Shown one piece after another: positions 8,494 through 14,121 of a DNA stretch of 20,598 nt. The position numbers and the translations under genes were made by a program. Source of the DNA: a virus; the IMG/VR virus record IMGVR_UViG_3300029319_000467, positions 1-20,598 of that record; one strand, written 5' to 3'. The notes beneath the pieces are model-generated. The model had not been told where the DNA came from. It made no database searches and saw nothing but the letters and a program-made list of their open reading frames with translations. The stretch's first letter is position 1. The number at the start of each line of letters is the position of its first letter.

Positions 8494-11193
8494 GTGGCTA
8501 AATTCATTACATTCAATGGCGTAACGCTCTATCACCCAGGCGGTCTTACTAAGATTGATGCCGCTGGGCTTGCACAGGTGGGTAGTGGAGTATCTGGTAT
8601 TGTTGGTGTTATTGGTGAGGCTGATGCTGGCCAACCTTGTACTGCAGCAGACCCAAAGGTTTACGAGTTTACAGATCCATCGGCTGCGATTGAAGTGTTT
8701 AAGACAGGACCTATGGCAGACGCTATAGATTTCTTGTTTAACCCGTCAAACGATGTCCGTATTCCTGGGGGCGCTCAAAAAGTAATTTGTGTTAAAACAA
8801 ACGCAAGTACTCAAAGTAGTGTAACTTTGCCTCTCGCAAATGATAACTCAAAGAATGCCATTACAGTTCAGTCTGTTGATTACGGTGTAAACACTGCAGG
8901 AATTCAGGTAAAAGTAAGCCAGAATGCTACAGATGACGACAAGTTTGATGCTACGGTTAACGATACTGTTAACGGAGTAGTTGAATCGTTTACCTCTCTT
9001 GGTGGTAAAGCGTTAATGAACGTTAAGTACCAAGGACCATCCGATCCTGTTGTAGTAGAAACATTAACCGCCACAGATACTGATAATACCATTCTTACGG
9101 CAAGTGCGGGAATTGGTAACGCTAAGGCTGGTCAATGGGTTAGGATTAAGTCCGGTGCCCAATCAGACGTGAATGGTCAGATTCGAAGAATCACCAGTGT
9201 GGATGCTGGTGAAAATAGAATTTTTGTTGAGCCTGCCTTTTGTGACGCTAGTGGCGCACAAGTAGGTCCTTCACAGAACTGTATATTTGAGGTAATTCGA
9301 ACAGTCATTGGTCCATTTTATGTAGAATCTGGACCAGATGTTAGTAGCTTTACACTTAAATCTTTACCTAGTGCTGCGGCTCATGCTTCCGCATGGGCTG
9401 AAGGTGACCCAATTATAGCCATTAACGATGCTGCTGAATCCCTTTATGGGTCAGCTACAAACGGTCCTAATTATGTAAAGGTTGTTAGTGGTACTGGAGC
9501 AGGTCAAATAAGAAGAATTTCAAGCGTTAATGGGAATAATGACGTAACGGTTGACATAACTGTTAATGTTACACCAGCTTTCGACACGAAGTTAGATACG
9601 ACATCGCGCATTAGCTTTATTAATGCCGTACATGACGCAACCAGTGTTGCGTCTGGTCACGGAGCCTTTGGAGTTATTGAGGGGGCAAATGGCGCTGCTA
9701 GTAAGTTAATACTAAGTTTTAGACCGGGTGCTGGTGAAGATGACGGTTCGGGAACTGCTGTTGCTCTTGGTGGTGCTGGTACAGGTTATGTAGCTTACGA
9801 ATTTTCTCTTGGAAGCGCCGCTACAGTAAGCTCTGTAGTGAATAGTATCAATTCAAGTAGTGGTAATAGTAACTCTCTAAACGCTACTGCAGCCACTGCA
9901 CATAGTGCAGGAGCTTGGTCTGCACAGGTTGGTCCTGGTAGGTCTGGATTACTCACTACAGATCGCTTTGACTTCATGCTCAACGGCGGAACTGACCAAA
10001 CCACAGATCTTACGAATGGTGGTGTAGCTTCAGACGATTCAGACAAAGTTGATTTGCTTTGCGACTTCAATCAACAGTTCTCAAAAACGTTTGGTGTTTC
10101 TAGTGCTAATTCCGTAAAGAAGCATCGATTCTTGGACAACCTGGCGCAGTTAGAAGATGCATTAGACAACCAAAGTCTTATCGTAAACGCTACTCGATCT
10201 ACTTCCGGCACTGGAGATGGTGCTGGGATGCCTAAGTTCAACCCAACGTTCGCAGAGAGCCTTTCAGGCGGTGCGAAGGGAGCAAGCTCTGCTTCTACAG
10301 TTGAGTTAGCTTTTGAGCAGTTAATCAAGAAGCGTCACAACACTGCAGTCGCCCTATTTAGTAGTGACTATAGTAGTGGTGGAAACACGTTTACGATTGA
10401 TTTTGTCCATAGCCAGTTGAAAAGCCACGCTAACAACGGCGCTGGAGCACATCGGAACGAAGTGGACTGTATCGCAGCATACGATGCTTCTGTGGCTGCA
10501 TCTACAGCGTTAGTGGATACCATTGCTAAGGCTAACGGTATCAACAACAGAAACGTTGGTCTTGTGTATCAAAAGATTCAGCGACCTGCATTGGACGGAA
10601 GCAACAAGGTGTTTGGTCCAGAGATGCTTGCCTGTGCTCTTGCCGGTATGCAAGCTGGAGCCACAGTCGGTGAGCCTCTGACATTCAAGTTTGTTAATGC
10701 TTTGGACATCGTTAGCCCTGTGAATGCAGATCCTCAAGACAAAAACGATTCTGATCAACTGCTCCAGAACTCAGTTCTGTTCTGTGAGAAGGTGCAGGGT
10801 CAAGGGTTCCGAGTGGTTAGAAACTACTCGACATACGCTCAAGACGATAATTTAGCGTTCACAGAGCGCCATGTTAACGCTGAGTTGAACTACATGGCTT
10901 ATGACCTGAGAACTTTTATTGAAGATCGCTTCACAGGTCTTAAGGCAACCCCAGCTACTGTTGCGAATATCAAGAGTGCTGTTGTCTCCAAGTTGGAGGT
11001 CTACAAGCGTGACCTTGAGATTATCGTAGATAGTAACGATCCAGTTACCGGTGCGGTACTAAACGCATACCGGAATTTAAAAGTTACCATTTCGGGTGAT
11101 ATAGCTACAATTCGCTTTGAGATATTCCCGACAATTGGTATTAATTACTTCAAGTTTGATATTGTTGCACAACTACCAACAATTAGCGCATAA
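8494..11193 (+). CDS. Tail sheath protein, unusually large
   Basis: GTG start after GGGAGA (8482-8487). At 899 residues it is longer than most sheaths (roughly 400-700). The N-terminus (VTLYHPGGLTKIDAAGL, VGVIGEADAG, FTDPSAAIEVFKTGP, DAIDFLFNPS) and the C-terminus (QNSVLFCEKVQGQGFRVVRNYST, then LNYMAYDLRTFIEDRFTG, LEVYKRDLEIIVD and a final strand pair) match the conserved sheath core, whose C-terminal domain interlocks neighbouring subunits and drives contraction. Between them, about residues 205-500, lie extra beta-rich regions including two copies of a module with GQIRRI(T/S)SV. These insertions probably project from the tail surface. The protein assembles around the tube encoded further downstream. 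Confidence 0.9.
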   Translation: MAKFITFNGVTLYHPGGLTKIDAAGLAQVGSGVSGIVGVIGEADAGQPCTAADPKVYEFTDPSAAIEVFKTGPMADAIDFLFNPSNDVRIPGGAQKVICVKTNASTQSSVTLPLANDNSKNAITVQSVDYGVNTAGIQVKVSQNATDDDKFDATVNDTVNGVVESFTSLGGKALMNVKYQGPSDPVVVETLTATDTDNTILTASAGIGNAKAGQWVRIKSGAQSDVNGQIRRITSVDAGENRIFVEPAFCDASGAQVGPSQNCIFEVIRTVIGPFYVESGPDVSSFTLKSLPSAAAHASAWAEGDPIIAINDAAESLYGSATNGPNYVKVVSGTGAGQIRRISSVNGNNDVTVDITVNVTPAFDTKLDTTSRISFINAVHDATSVASGHGAFGVIEGANGAASKLILSFRPGAGEDDGSGTAVALGGAGTGYVAYEFSLGSAATVSSVVNSINSSSGNSNSLNATAATAHSAGAWSAQVGPGRSGLLTTDRFDFMLNGGTDQTTDLTNGGVASDDSDKVDLLCDFNQQFSKTFGVSSANSVKKHRFLDNLAQLEDALDNQSLIVNATRSTSGTGDGAGMPKFNPTFAESLSGGAKGASSASTVELAFEQLIKKRHNTAVALFSSDYSSGGNTFTIDFVHSQLKSHANNGAGAHRNEVDCIAAYDASVAASTALVDTIAKANGINNRNVGLVYQKIQRPALDGSNKVFGPEMLACALAGMQAGATVGEPLTFKFVNALDIVSPVNADPQDKNDSDQLLQNSVLFCEKVQGQGFRVVRNYSTYAQDDNLAFTERHVNAELNYMAYDLRTFIEDRFTGLKATPATVANIKSAVVSKLEVYKRDLEIIVDSNDPVTGAVLNAYRNLKVTISGDIATIRFEIFPTIGINYFKFDIVAQLPTISA
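9121..9303 (+). repeat. Beta module in sheath insertion, copy 1
   Basis: Codes for residues ~210-270 of the sheath: WVRIKSG, then GQIRRITSV, VEPAF and IFEVIRT. It aligns with the module at 9469-9621 around SG...GQIRRI-SV-x-N/G and a following strand. Relationship is visible in protein only; DNA identity is low. Confidence 0.6.
9469..9621 (+). repeat. Beta module in sheath insertion, copy 2
   Basis: Codes for residues ~326-376: YVKVVSGTGAGQIRRISSV, a polar turn, then VTPAFDTKLDTTSRISFI. The SGTGAGQ-R-I-SV motif is common in surface modules of phage structural proteins. Together with copy 1 it indicates an internal duplication inside the sheath insertion. Confidence 0.6.
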
Positions 11194-11204
11194 GGAGAGC
11201 CACG

Positions 11205-12698
11205 ATGGCAGCTATTACATCACTCAGTGACGCGGCACAAACCGAATTCATTAAGCTACGTCATAAATACTTGAATGGCTCCGGTGAGCTTATCCAAGCA
11301 GGTACTAAAATATTACAGTCAGGAACTTTTCCAGACGTGCTCAGTACTTCAGTTATGGGGAAAGGTTTTCTTCAGGAAGCTAGTTTAACTGGTGCTAGGG
11401 AGCTTGTACTCCAGTCTGCGTCTGAAGCTGCACAGTTTAAAGTTGGAGACACACTACACTGCTTTACCACTGCTGGTGCTGCTGAATTTACAGCAGTGCT
11501 TGTTGAGGGTGTAAAAGGGCAGAAGGTTCTTGTTGAAGCAACAAGCGGGGCTGCTTCTGCTGGCTCTATCTGCGTTAAGTTTGCTGACGGACAAGTTGGC
11601 GGTCAGGCATCTGGAGATTCTGCTGGAATTGCTTATGTTGGTGCTGGGGATGTGGCTGCTTTCCTGCAAGCGATTCAAGATAACATTACTAATGTGATGT
11701 ATACTGGTGATATCGATATCGACGCTACTGCTTCTGCTGATGATGGTATTTATTCTGTACTTCAAACATCCACTGACGTACCAACTACGGGTGGCGGATT
11801 GACACCTAACGCTGCCCTTTTGAACGGTGACTTGGTTACTTTCAAAACATCGCCAGCCGCTTTGGTAGGATGTACTGCCCGTATTATTAAACACACTACA
11901 GGAACTGCCGTAACGATAACAGTTGGGGATATTAGAGATTCCAATGGTACGTTTCTTGGAAATCAGTTTCCTGTAGCAACTTCTGCTGCCCATAGTGGTG
12001 GGGCGAGTGCCTCAGTGTCCCCAGATACTGATACTCAAGCAACACTTGCCTCTGGCAAGGCTGACAAGTACATTCGACAGCTTTCCGGTTCTACCTCCTA
12101 CCCAACACCTGAGTTACAGGGCGGAGTGGAGAACTCAAATGACCCCGGAGCTTCAAATGTTCTCGTGACTGCGTTGTTTGAGATGTTACAACACTTCTCA
12201 CCAACTGGTGGTGAGGGTGCTGGAGACCAGGAGCTTATCCCTGCAGATCTTGAAGAGAAACTCTTTGGATCTATGGTTAAAGGCAGCGTTTCGAACTTGG
12301 GCACTGCTCAAGGAAAGCGAGTTAGACTCGCCGCAGCCGCTGCGTCTGGAGACTCATCCCTCACCGTGGAAAAGGACAACTTAGTTAATGATGTTCCGTT
12401 TCCGTTAAGTGGTAGTGTGAGAGTCTTTAACAATCGTGGTCAAGGCAATACACAAGGTATTGATGGTGCTGGAGTAAGCGCAAATAAGACCTTTACTAGA
12501 ACTAAAAGAAGCGACGTACTTTCTCTTGGATCAAATATTGGTATTACCTGTAAAGTCGGGGATATTGTAGAGTTGCTTCCAGCACACGGAATGATTAAGA
12601 AGCCAATCGCTTCTCAAATCTCCGGTGAAGACATGGTTACTATCATGATGGCTATGCGGAACTGCATAAAGACAATTCCTACTATCACTGTTGACTAG
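11205..12698 (+). CDS. Beta-rich structural protein of unknown role, between sheath and tube genes
   Basis: Strong AAGGAGA (11192-11198) before the ATG. A 497-residue protein rich in Ala, Gly, Ser and Thr, with few aromatic residues. It starts with a helix (LSDAAQTEFIKLRHKYLNG), then shows repeated beta segments with FKVGDTLHCF, LNGDLVTFKTS and CKVGDIVELLP, suggesting several small barrels or decoration modules in series. A central helical stretch (NVLVTALFEMLQHF) and a C-terminal helix (GEDMVTIMMAMRNCIKT) are also present. I do not recognise a family. Its location between sheath and tube, and its tight link to the sheath gene, point to a tail or virion surface component. It is less likely to be enzymatic, as no catalytic motif is visible. 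Confidence 0.7.
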   Translation: MAAITSLSDAAQTEFIKLRHKYLNGSGELIQAGTKILQSGTFPDVLSTSVMGKGFLQEASLTGARELVLQSASEAAQFKVGDTLHCFTTAGAAEFTAVLVEGVKGQKVLVEATSGAASAGSICVKFADGQVGGQASGDSAGIAYVGAGDVAAFLQAIQDNITNVMYTGDIDIDATASADDGIYSVLQTSTDVPTTGGGLTPNAALLNGDLVTFKTSPAALVGCTARIIKHTTGTAVTITVGDIRDSNGTFLGNQFPVATSAAHSGGASASVSPDTDTQATLASGKADKYIRQLSGSTSYPTPELQGGVENSNDPGASNVLVTALFEMLQHFSPTGGEGAGDQELIPADLEEKLFGSMVKGSVSNLGTAQGKRVRLAAAAASGDSSLTVEKDNLVNDVPFPLSGSVRVFNNRGQGNTQGIDGAGVSANKTFTRTKRSDVLSLGSNIGITCKVGDIVELLPAHGMIKKPIASQISGEDMVTIMMAMRNCIKTIPTITVD

Positions 12699-12710
12699 TA
12701 ATTAACTAAA

Positions 12711-12791
12711 GGTCGAGGGTTATTTTCCTCCTAGAGTGCCCTGTAGCAAATTCAGTTCTTACGAATCTACTTCAGGCACTCAACCTTGACC
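12711..12791 (+). ncRNA. Predicted structured leader RNA element before the tail tube gene
   Basis: In the 148-base non-coding gap 12699-12846, bases can fold into nested stems: P1 GGTCGAGG (12711-12718) with CCTTGACC (12784-12791), 8 bp with one G-U; P2 GAGTGCC (12734-12740) with GGCACTC (12775-12781), 7 perfect bp; P3 GTAG (12743-12746) with CTAC (12767-12770); P4 ATTC (12750-12753) with GAAT (12763-12766), closing a 9-base loop. The 5' side between P1 and P2 (12719-12733) is an unpaired pyrimidine-rich strand including CTCCTA (12728-12733), complementary to TAGGAG (12835-12840), the tail tube Shine-Dalgarno. It could be a translational control element or a processing site. It is not tRNA-like, and lacks the U-run of a terminator. 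Confidence 0.5.
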
Positions 12792-12814
12792 ATTTACCTT
12801 TCTAATGACAAAAT
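12786..12814 (+). promoter_or_regulatory. Weak sigma70-like promoter candidate
   Basis: TTGACC (12786-12791, five of six to the -35 consensus) is followed after 17 bases by CAAAAT (12809-12814, four of six to the -10). A promoter here would give the abundant tube protein its own short transcript, starting after the leader fold. Phages of this type often use their own late promoters, so this is only a candidate. Confidence 0.2.
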
Positions 12815-12846
12815 TAATTTACTTTTTACCTGCATAGGAGTGTGCC

Positions 12847-13305
12847 GTGGCTAAAGAAATTTTTACTGGTGCGAGGGCCAGATTTTTCCTCGATGATGTA
12901 CCTATTGGATATTGTGCTGGCGTTAGTGGCGAAGAGGCTATTGACTATGAACCAGTTGACACATTAGAGTTCTTACAAGTTCGAGAGCATGTTCCTGTAG
13001 CGTATCGTGCTTCGATGAGTGCTGCGTTCTTCCGTCTTATTGGATCTTCTTTGAAGGAGTATGCTGGTAAGGATGAAGATGCGGGTGGGAAAGAGATTTT
13101 CCCGAAGTTCAATAACATTCTTTTATCGGGTGCCATGACTGCTGCGATTATCGAAACAAAAAGTGATAGTCCCAGGGTCATTGCTCAGTTTCAGGATGTT
13201 CGGGCTGCGAGTAAGACGTTTGATGTTTCTTCTCGTGGAATTGTTACGGAGAACTGTTCTTTCGTTGCAATCAACATGTTCGACGAGTCTGAAATTGATA
13301 TTTAA
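12847..13305 (+). CDS. Tail tube protein
   Basis: GTG start 6 bases after TAGGAG (12835-12840). The 152-residue product matches the short tube proteins of contractile-tailed phages: FTGARARFFLDDVPIGY and GVSGEEAIDYEPVDTLEFL at the N-terminus, REHVPVAYRASMSAAFFRLIG, a middle ILLSGAMTAAIIE strand, and a C-terminal TFDVSSRGIVTENCSFVAINMFDESE. These form a beta-sandwich that stacks in hexamer rings around the tape measure and carries DNA into the cell. It is preceded by the only long non-coding gap in the window and followed by the tail assembly chaperone genes, the standard order. Confidence 0.88.
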   Translation: MAKEIFTGARARFFLDDVPIGYCAGVSGEEAIDYEPVDTLEFLQVREHVPVAYRASMSAAFFRLIGSSLKEYAGKDEDAGGKEIFPKFNNILLSGAMTAAIIETKSDSPRVIAQFQDVRAASKTFDVSSRGIVTENCSFVAINMFDESEIDI

Positions 13306-13331: not shown

Positions 13332-13805
13332 ATGAATCAGCTTACAAAGACCTTTCATATAGATGTTGTTTCGAAAGTAGACAACCGCAGATACCAAGGG
13401 TCATTTACTACTAAAAAGCTCACCATGGGCGATCTATCTAAGATGGGTATGCTTAAAGCAAGATTGGGCGGTGGCTTCAACTATGACCCTTCAACAGGTC
13501 AAGGTCTTGATGCTGCCACCAATCTCCTTAACGAGATGATTGTTCATTGTAATGTTGCTTTGGTACAGAAGCCTGACTGGTTTGATCCTGAGAACATGAG
13601 TGACGTGAACGTGCTTCAGCAAGTTTACGAGGAGGTGGCTTCTTTTGAGGCCAACTTTCACGCAGCAGAACCCCAAGTTGGAGGGGAAGGATCTTCTGGA
13701 GGCGGCGAAGACCCAGGCAGCATTGAACTTGAAGGGTCACGGAGATCCGCTGACGCGCATCAGGATTTGGTGGACAAAAAAGTACCAAAGATCTCCCAAC
13801 TCTGA
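13332..13805 (+). CDS. Tail assembly chaperone, short (G-type) form
   Basis: GGGAGA (13320-13325) precedes the ATG. The 157-residue product has the usual G-protein core: an N-terminal strand pair (FHIDVVSK, YQGSFTTKKLT), a helix with MGDLSKMGMLKARLGGG, a GLDAATNLLNEMIVHCNVALVQKPDWFDP segment, and VLQQVYEEVASFEANF at about 97-112. Beyond residue 114 it becomes Gly/Ser/Glu-rich and low in predicted structure, where a second frame takes over with conserved-looking coding. In known phages the short form, in excess, coats the tape measure during tail assembly together with a longer frameshifted product. Its 3' end overlaps the next frame by 161 bases. Confidence 0.85.
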   Translation: MNQLTKTFHIDVVSKVDNRRYQGSFTTKKLTMGDLSKMGMLKARLGGGFNYDPSTGQGLDAATNLLNEMIVHCNVALVQKPDWFDPENMSDVNVLQQVYEEVASFEANFHAAEPQVGGEGSSGGGEDPGSIELEGSRRSADAHQDLVDKKVPKISQL

Positions 13806-14121
13806 GGAGTTTAAGAGTTATACGTTCTTTCAGCTTCTGACTGAATTCTTTGAAGATTACTTCGAAGAGAAGCCTGAAGCTATGAAGGGGTTAGATCTCC
13901 CAGCTAGTCAATTTGGCGATGATGTCATTGATAAGTGGGAGCGTGAGGTTGAACAGGGGCTTACCCCAGACCTGCTTGAGGATCTCACTCCTGAGCAGGG
14001 AAGACACTTACGTTCGTGGAGTCGTCGAGTTGGAAAGCTCAAGAGAGATCGAGGCGGCATAGGATATAGTCCTCCTAAGTCAGAGAGTGTTGGCGAAGAA
14101 GTATATAGGGAAGAGTTCTAA
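13645..14121 (+). CDS. Tail assembly chaperone, T-type extension (+1 frame)
   Basis: This frame is open from 13609 to 14121 and is shifted +1 (equivalently -2) relative to the short chaperone. It encodes KDLLEAAKTQAAL, a WWTKKYQRSPNSEEF motif, then FFQLLTEFFEDYFEE and a charged C-terminus, a typical T-domain pattern of tail assembly chaperones. It is probably made as a fusion: slipping on CCC.C (13671-13674) would join residues 1-114 of the short form to 148 residues here, 262 in all. An independent start is also plausible: TTG at 13645 lies 8 bases after a perfect AGGAGGT (13630-13636), giving 158 residues. The T part is known to bridge the chaperone-coated tape measure to tube protein. The stop overlaps the tape measure ATG by one base. 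Confidence 0.8.
   Translation: MRPTFTQQNPKLEGKDLLEAAKTQAALNLKGHGDPLTRIRIWWTKKYQRSPNSEEFKSYTFFQLLTEFFEDYFEEKPEAMKGLDLPASQFGDDVIDKWEREVEQGLTPDLLEDLTPEQGRHLRSWSRRVGKLKRDRGGIGYSPPKSESVGEEVYREEF
13671..13686 (+). other. Candidate +1 ribosomal frameshift sites
   Basis: In the short chaperone frame the codons are GAA CCC CAA GTT GGA GGG GAA. CCC followed by C (13671-13674) lets tRNA-Pro re-pair one base forward and continue at AAG (13675). GGG followed by G (13683-13686) permits the same with tRNA-Gly, continuing at AAG (13687). Both lead into the T frame. No -1 slippery heptamer would reach that frame. CCC.N is a known class of +1 site. Confidence 0.55.

Follow-up and report, generated by a model that had tools for sequence, protein, structure and literature searches.

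The stretch of DNA analysed here (20,598 nucleotides; the window) belongs to a virus record of 25,206 bases and comes from a phage of the contractile-tail type, the sheath protein of which is distantly SPO1/Herelleviridae-like (phrog_279) and about 28% identical to that of Bacillus phage BSP14. The genes run on the + strand in the order sheath, an open reading frame (ORF) of 497 amino acids, a non-coding leader, a tube-like gene, and a tail assembly chaperone. The sheath gene (8494 to 11193) is unusually long, encoding 899 amino acids, and its best stretch of similarity to the sheath family begins at residue 348, so that roughly the first third of the protein is extra. The 497-amino-acid ORF (11205 to 12698, + strand) has no family match and is hypervariable among relatives; it is about 40% identical to its counterpart in the relative L001, compared with 88 to 91% for sheath and tube. 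The leader that follows it (12699 to 12846, + strand) spans 148 nucleotides and is, as the initial annotation had stated, the sole long gap between main + strand ORFs, all other intervals ranging from –161 to 28 nucleotides.

The tube-like gene (12847 to 13305, + strand) begins with a GTG codon and encodes 152 amino acids belonging to phrog_985, a family whose sole annotation is "virion structural protein." Its identity as the tail tube fits this assignment together with the gene order, with the sheath on the 5' side and the assembly chaperone on the 3' side. The name "tail tube" used in the initial annotation is consistent with both lines of evidence but unproven; the AlphaFold model of the protein has a pLDDT of 41, which is too poor to confirm a tube, and a PDB sequence search with the protein matched no solved relative. 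Further downstream, the chaperone ORF (13332 to 14121) shares positions 13609 to 13805 with another ORF, read in the +1 (or –2) frame, and the same overlap occurs in seven relatives. Within it, most of these records carry a Shine-Dalgarno-like GAGGAGGTGG followed by TTTTGAGG, and the overlap is a candidate for a programmed frameshift.

The leader is predicted to fold around two helices. The outer stem, P1, pairs a 5' arm at 12711 to 12718 (GGUC, termed P1a, and GAGG, termed P1b) with a 3' arm CCUUGACC at 12784 to 12791 and contains 8 pairs, including one G-U. Its 5' arm is invariant except for one pair-keeping A-to-G change in L029, the third record carrying the leader, and its 3' arm lies inside the invariant AACCUUGACC (12782 to 12791). 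The inner helix, P2, is formed by GAGUGCC (12734 to 12740) and GGCACUC (12775 to 12781) through 7 perfect pairs, which in L029 are rebuilt by two-sided changes. Upper P2 and an apical hairpin occupy 12743 to 12770 and include the conserved motif UCAGUUCYYACGA (12752 to 12764), with one change in L001 (T12760C). Between P1 and P2 lies the strand GUUAUUUUCCUCCUA (12719 to 12733), which is unpaired in the P1 state, includes the anti-Shine-Dalgarno-like CUCCUA (12728 to 12733), and shows two C-for-T changes, in L029 only. An A/U-rich linker with little structure (12792 to 12834), near-identical in L001 and about half conserved in L029, leads to the Shine-Dalgarno UAGGAG of the tube-like gene (12835 to 12840), which is kept in all three leaders. 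Both stems reproduce the lengths given in the initial annotation, and the exact complementarity that it had noticed between CTCCTA and TAGGAG, about 100 nucleotides apart, is likewise present. About 23 nucleotides at the start of the tube gene (12847 to 12869) are identical between the window and L001, with GAAATTTTTA also common to L029, and the conserved RNA may extend into the tube coding region.

Folding energy was compared with that of dinucleotide shuffles, as had been proposed earlier. The core of the leader (12710 to 12791) stands out, with a z score of –3.96 and none of 200 shuffles as good; only 7 of 1,026 window segments of 82 nucleotides reach this value, placing the core in about the best 1%. 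The excess is smaller over the whole gap (z = –2.18, 6 of 200 shuffles as good) and smaller still when flanks are included (z = –1.48). Folding energy by itself is only suggestive and insufficient, and the structural case is built on the comparison of relatives. No Rho-independent terminator, recognizable as a GC stem with a T run behind it, was found in the leader. A perfect hairpin at 2842 to 2859 of L029, CCTGCTC-CGTA-GAGCAGG, encloses the stop of the upstream ORF and is also without a T run.

Nine other IMG/VR records, some being near duplicates, contain homologues of the tube-like protein. The leader lies directly 5' of the tube gene in L001 (tube 90% identical) and L029 (68% amino acid identity), whereas in L003/L002, L006, L025, L026, and the distant L004/L005 the tube gene comes straight after the upstream ORF. 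With five related tube loci lacking it, the leader is evidently unneeded for tube expression in general. The model R1 and a DNA pattern allowing up to 3 mismatches each recovered exactly one copy in the window, L001, and L029, and none in the remaining records, several of which are fragments. Other pattern hits had different surroundings and no leader architecture and were regarded as chance matches; pattern and protein scans thus revealed no carriers beyond these three. Cultured phages yielded no tube homologue with a meaningful E-value, their 50,697 records contained no leader-like DNA apart from chance matches, and the bacterial genome collection held neither tube homologue nor leader. A single gain followed by vertical descent fits the chaperone tree, which groups the three carriers with support of 95/98; the tube tree is weaker and lacks a clade of the three. 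In every carrier, the leader is on the same strand as the tube-like gene and directly before it, the position of a cis-regulatory leader, and the upstream ORF terminates 10 to 14 nucleotides 5' of P1.

Over positions 12702 to 12846, the leaders of the window and L001 are identical at 142 of 145 sites (98%). Identity at four-fold sites of the flanking genes is far lower (79% for sheath, 38% for the hypervariable ORF, 55% for tube, and 49% for chaperone), and this difference requires either strong selection or very local exchange; local recombination could account for part of it. Between the window and L029, three segments are nearly invariant, namely the 23-nucleotide GGUCGRGGGUUAUYYUCCUCCUA, the 10-nucleotide AACCUUGACC, and the apical UCAGUUCYYACGA, and P2 retains its pairing with an altered sequence. 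In the leader alignment, 97% of cells are paired and 4 pairs are changed on both sides. Column shuffles gave a mean of 1.3 double-sided pairs and reached 4 in 3 of 500 cases, and controls in which the partner was slid by 1 to 3 columns were only 31 to 40% paired, with 0 or 1 double changes. The inner hairpin of L029 folds better than all 5,000 constrained shuffles, and that of the window better than 4,988 of 5,000. The initial annotation would have given up the structure had relatives offered neither covariation nor conservation; the comparison yielded both, and the structure survived it. Since the window and L001 have nearly the same sequence, the compensatory changes, which are those of a conserved structure in a cis-regulatory mRNA leader, come from two effective lineages. 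Taken with the conservation, they make a real and selected structure very probable.

These observations bear on two readings in which the fold is not itself the functional element. That it arose by chance, or that the leader encodes a regulatory peptide, is scarcely credible: conservation and compensatory changes exceed chance, and although short GTG frames begin at the same place (12736), frame and peptide are wholly different in the window and L029 and have no Shine-Dalgarno. A leader-peptide attenuator was accordingly rejected, as no conserved short ORF with a Shine-Dalgarno exists. The leader might instead act as DNA, either as a conserved patch for swapping the hypervariable upstream ORF between phages or as an internal promoter. 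The divergence of that ORF between the window and L001 (38% at four-fold sites, about 40% in protein) between flanks that are alike would suit such a patch, and TTGACC-17-CAAAAT at 12786 to 12814 is promoter-like. The pair-preserving changes in L029 are, however, unexpected for a recombination patch, and a sigma-70 promoter was rejected, with 1 match found against 0.9 expected by chance and none in L029. We regard a DNA-level role as improbable.

A further question is which strand is functional. For the window by itself, the more stable fold is that of the – strand (z = –5.28), and single-sequence folding therefore cannot decide the strand. Across relatives, 2 cells are broken among 25 pairs on the + strand versus 6 among 28 on the – strand, and the covariation term is –1.99 versus –0.21. 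The + strand keeps more pairs because several one-sided changes convert G-C to G-U on that strand. If the – strand instead gave rise to a small antisense RNA against the tube leader, its better fold in the window would be in keeping with that, but its pairs are broken more often, its covariation term is almost nil, and no promoter-like or terminator-like matches were found on the – strand near the leader; we consider this reading very improbable. The operon itself runs on the + strand, which is favoured as the strand of the functional RNA.

Constrained folding of the three leaders points to two alternative states at the base. The segment GRGGG (GAGGG at 12715 to 12719 in the window) has two mutually exclusive partners: UCCUC just 3' of it (12726 to 12730), which yields an alternative hairpin, H1, in place of the P1 3' arm, or CCUU of that arm, which yields P1b. 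The calculated energies of H1 and P1b are –27.2 and –27.8 kcal/mol in the window and –26.4 and –27.0 kcal/mol in L001. In L029, H1 in the same register reaches –35.0 kcal/mol and, shifted by one register, –38.2 kcal/mol, compared with –37.7 kcal/mol for P1b. The gap between the two states is thus 0.6 kcal/mol in both the window and L001 and 0.5 kcal/mol in L029 (with the register-shifted H1), and because of this similarity, a bistable leader base in all three carriers is plausible.

The initial annotation had suggested that the free strand masks the Shine-Dalgarno; on this reading, a long-range pseudoknot between CUCCUA and UAGGAG would keep translation off until released, with an effect comparable to that of the sequestered Shine-Dalgarno in T4 genes e, soc, and 49. 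Several features are compatible with such a switch: CCUCCUA and UAGGAG are both retained in the three carriers, the CUCCUA:Shine-Dalgarno duplex is worth –8.4 to –9.6 kcal/mol, and CCUCCUA would be free to reach the Shine-Dalgarno in the P1b state, whereas H1 occupies most of it. An equally long Watson-Crick match to the Shine-Dalgarno region nevertheless occurs in 22% of shuffled leaders of the window and 24% of those of L001 (2% for L029), and the 6-nucleotide match in the window and L001 is no more than expected by chance. TAGGAG also serves as the Shine-Dalgarno of the leaderless L026, and the conservation of CCUCC is explained equally well by GRGGG:UCCUC pairing within the leader. The apical loop of L029 is a stronger partner still (–16.5 kcal/mol), but the same pairing fails in the window and L001 (–4.3 kcal/mol). 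We also rejected a local hairpin over the Shine-Dalgarno in the consensus fold, ACUUUUU:UAGGAGU, which is weak and rich in G-U pairs and for which the ensemble Shine-Dalgarno probabilities differ between members. Pairing of the Shine-Dalgarno above chance is not common to all members, and the best partners differ from one to the next. Masking by the loop was therefore not borne out as proposed, and we rate the switch as rather unlikely. A decoy for 16S rRNA, put forward at the same time, is likewise undercut by the chance-level CTCCTA match and by the GRGGG:UCCUC explanation of CCUCC.

The main rival of a role in tube expression is processing by a double-strand-specific RNase. Here the long helix would be cut by an RNase III-type host enzyme, or would block decay, and the tube part of the transcript would acquire a 5' end and an abundance separate from the rest. 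The uninterrupted 15-bp helix of L029 with its apical hairpin would suit this, as would the location of the leader within a long operon and ahead of a gene encoding a protein required in many copies, and the helix is free in sequence with its pairing kept. Against it, the helix of the window is short and interrupted (7 bp, followed by an internal loop), and neither the invariant apical loop nor the 23-nucleotide 5' strand is explained. Such processing is unlikely in our view, although less so than the masking switch.

The most likely target of the leader is expression of the tube gene, and its place immediately 5' of the Shine-Dalgarno and start codon, within an operon that otherwise leaves little space between genes, speaks for this. 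Specifically, we propose, with a probability of roughly 0.45, that it is a cis-acting structured leader of the late polycistronic mRNA that adjusts tail-tube translation. The leader RNA would be transcribed within this mRNA, and GRGGG at its base would alternate between UCCUC and CCUU as partners. The balance might be shifted by a phage protein recognizing the apical hairpin or by ribosomes ending on the upstream ORF, and the shift would alter the efficiency of translation initiation at the tube gene, possibly via CUCCUA:Shine-Dalgarno pairing. A ribosome terminating 10 to 14 nucleotides before P1 could also couple the two genes. A more elaborate version, amounting to a new class of phage RNA regulator in which a structural or assembly protein of the phage reads the bistable base and conserved apical loop to set the amount of tube relative to sheath and tail-assembly proteins, is speculative and distinctly unlikely. 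As regards a riboswitch, no ligand-related gene lies downstream of the leader.

Structure-based control of initiation is known in phages from T4, although none of the examples concerns a tail tube. The T4 genes e, soc, 49, and I-TevI have the Shine-Dalgarno and/or start codon inside an RNA helix, which for gene e forms only in longer transcripts (PMC3014915). The leader resembles these as a structured phage mRNA 5' of a gene that could lower 30S binding, but its Shine-Dalgarno lies about 43 nucleotides 3' of the fold and pairs with the leader at chance level. Genes 43 and 32 of T4 carry translational operators, the former a hairpin about 40 bases 5' of the start codon and the latter a pseudoknot (PMC3014915, PMC535899). 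A conserved-loop hairpin upstream of the start, with a lower stem varying between relatives, is common to these operators and the leader; the latter differs in its larger size, its base stem, and a possibly bistable strand. Structured RNAs such as manA and wcaG were found by comparative genomics, mostly in metagenomic sequence including phages (PMC2864571). They share 5' leader position, covariation, and metagenomic origin with the leader but precede metabolic and photosynthesis genes rather than a tube-like gene. The sheath-tube region of SPO1-like Herelleviridae shares distant sheath homology (phrog_279) but not leader DNA, judging from the 50,697 cultured phage records.

A scan of the whole window against Rfam 15 returned nothing at the gathering threshold, and the leaders of the window and L029, searched at E-values up to 10, gave chance-level matches only, which upholds the earlier statement that no described RNA element matches. 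A conserved tail-tube leader RNA was likewise absent from Rfam 15 and from the literature searched, where coverage was partial and Rfam is the better test. The leader is thus a candidate for a new, narrowly distributed leader RNA family. Its presence in some close relatives and absence from others provides a natural comparison for its purpose. If the leader does control tube translation, some contractile-tail phages would tune the stoichiometry of their tail parts at the RNA level, through a control element that is compact and testable.
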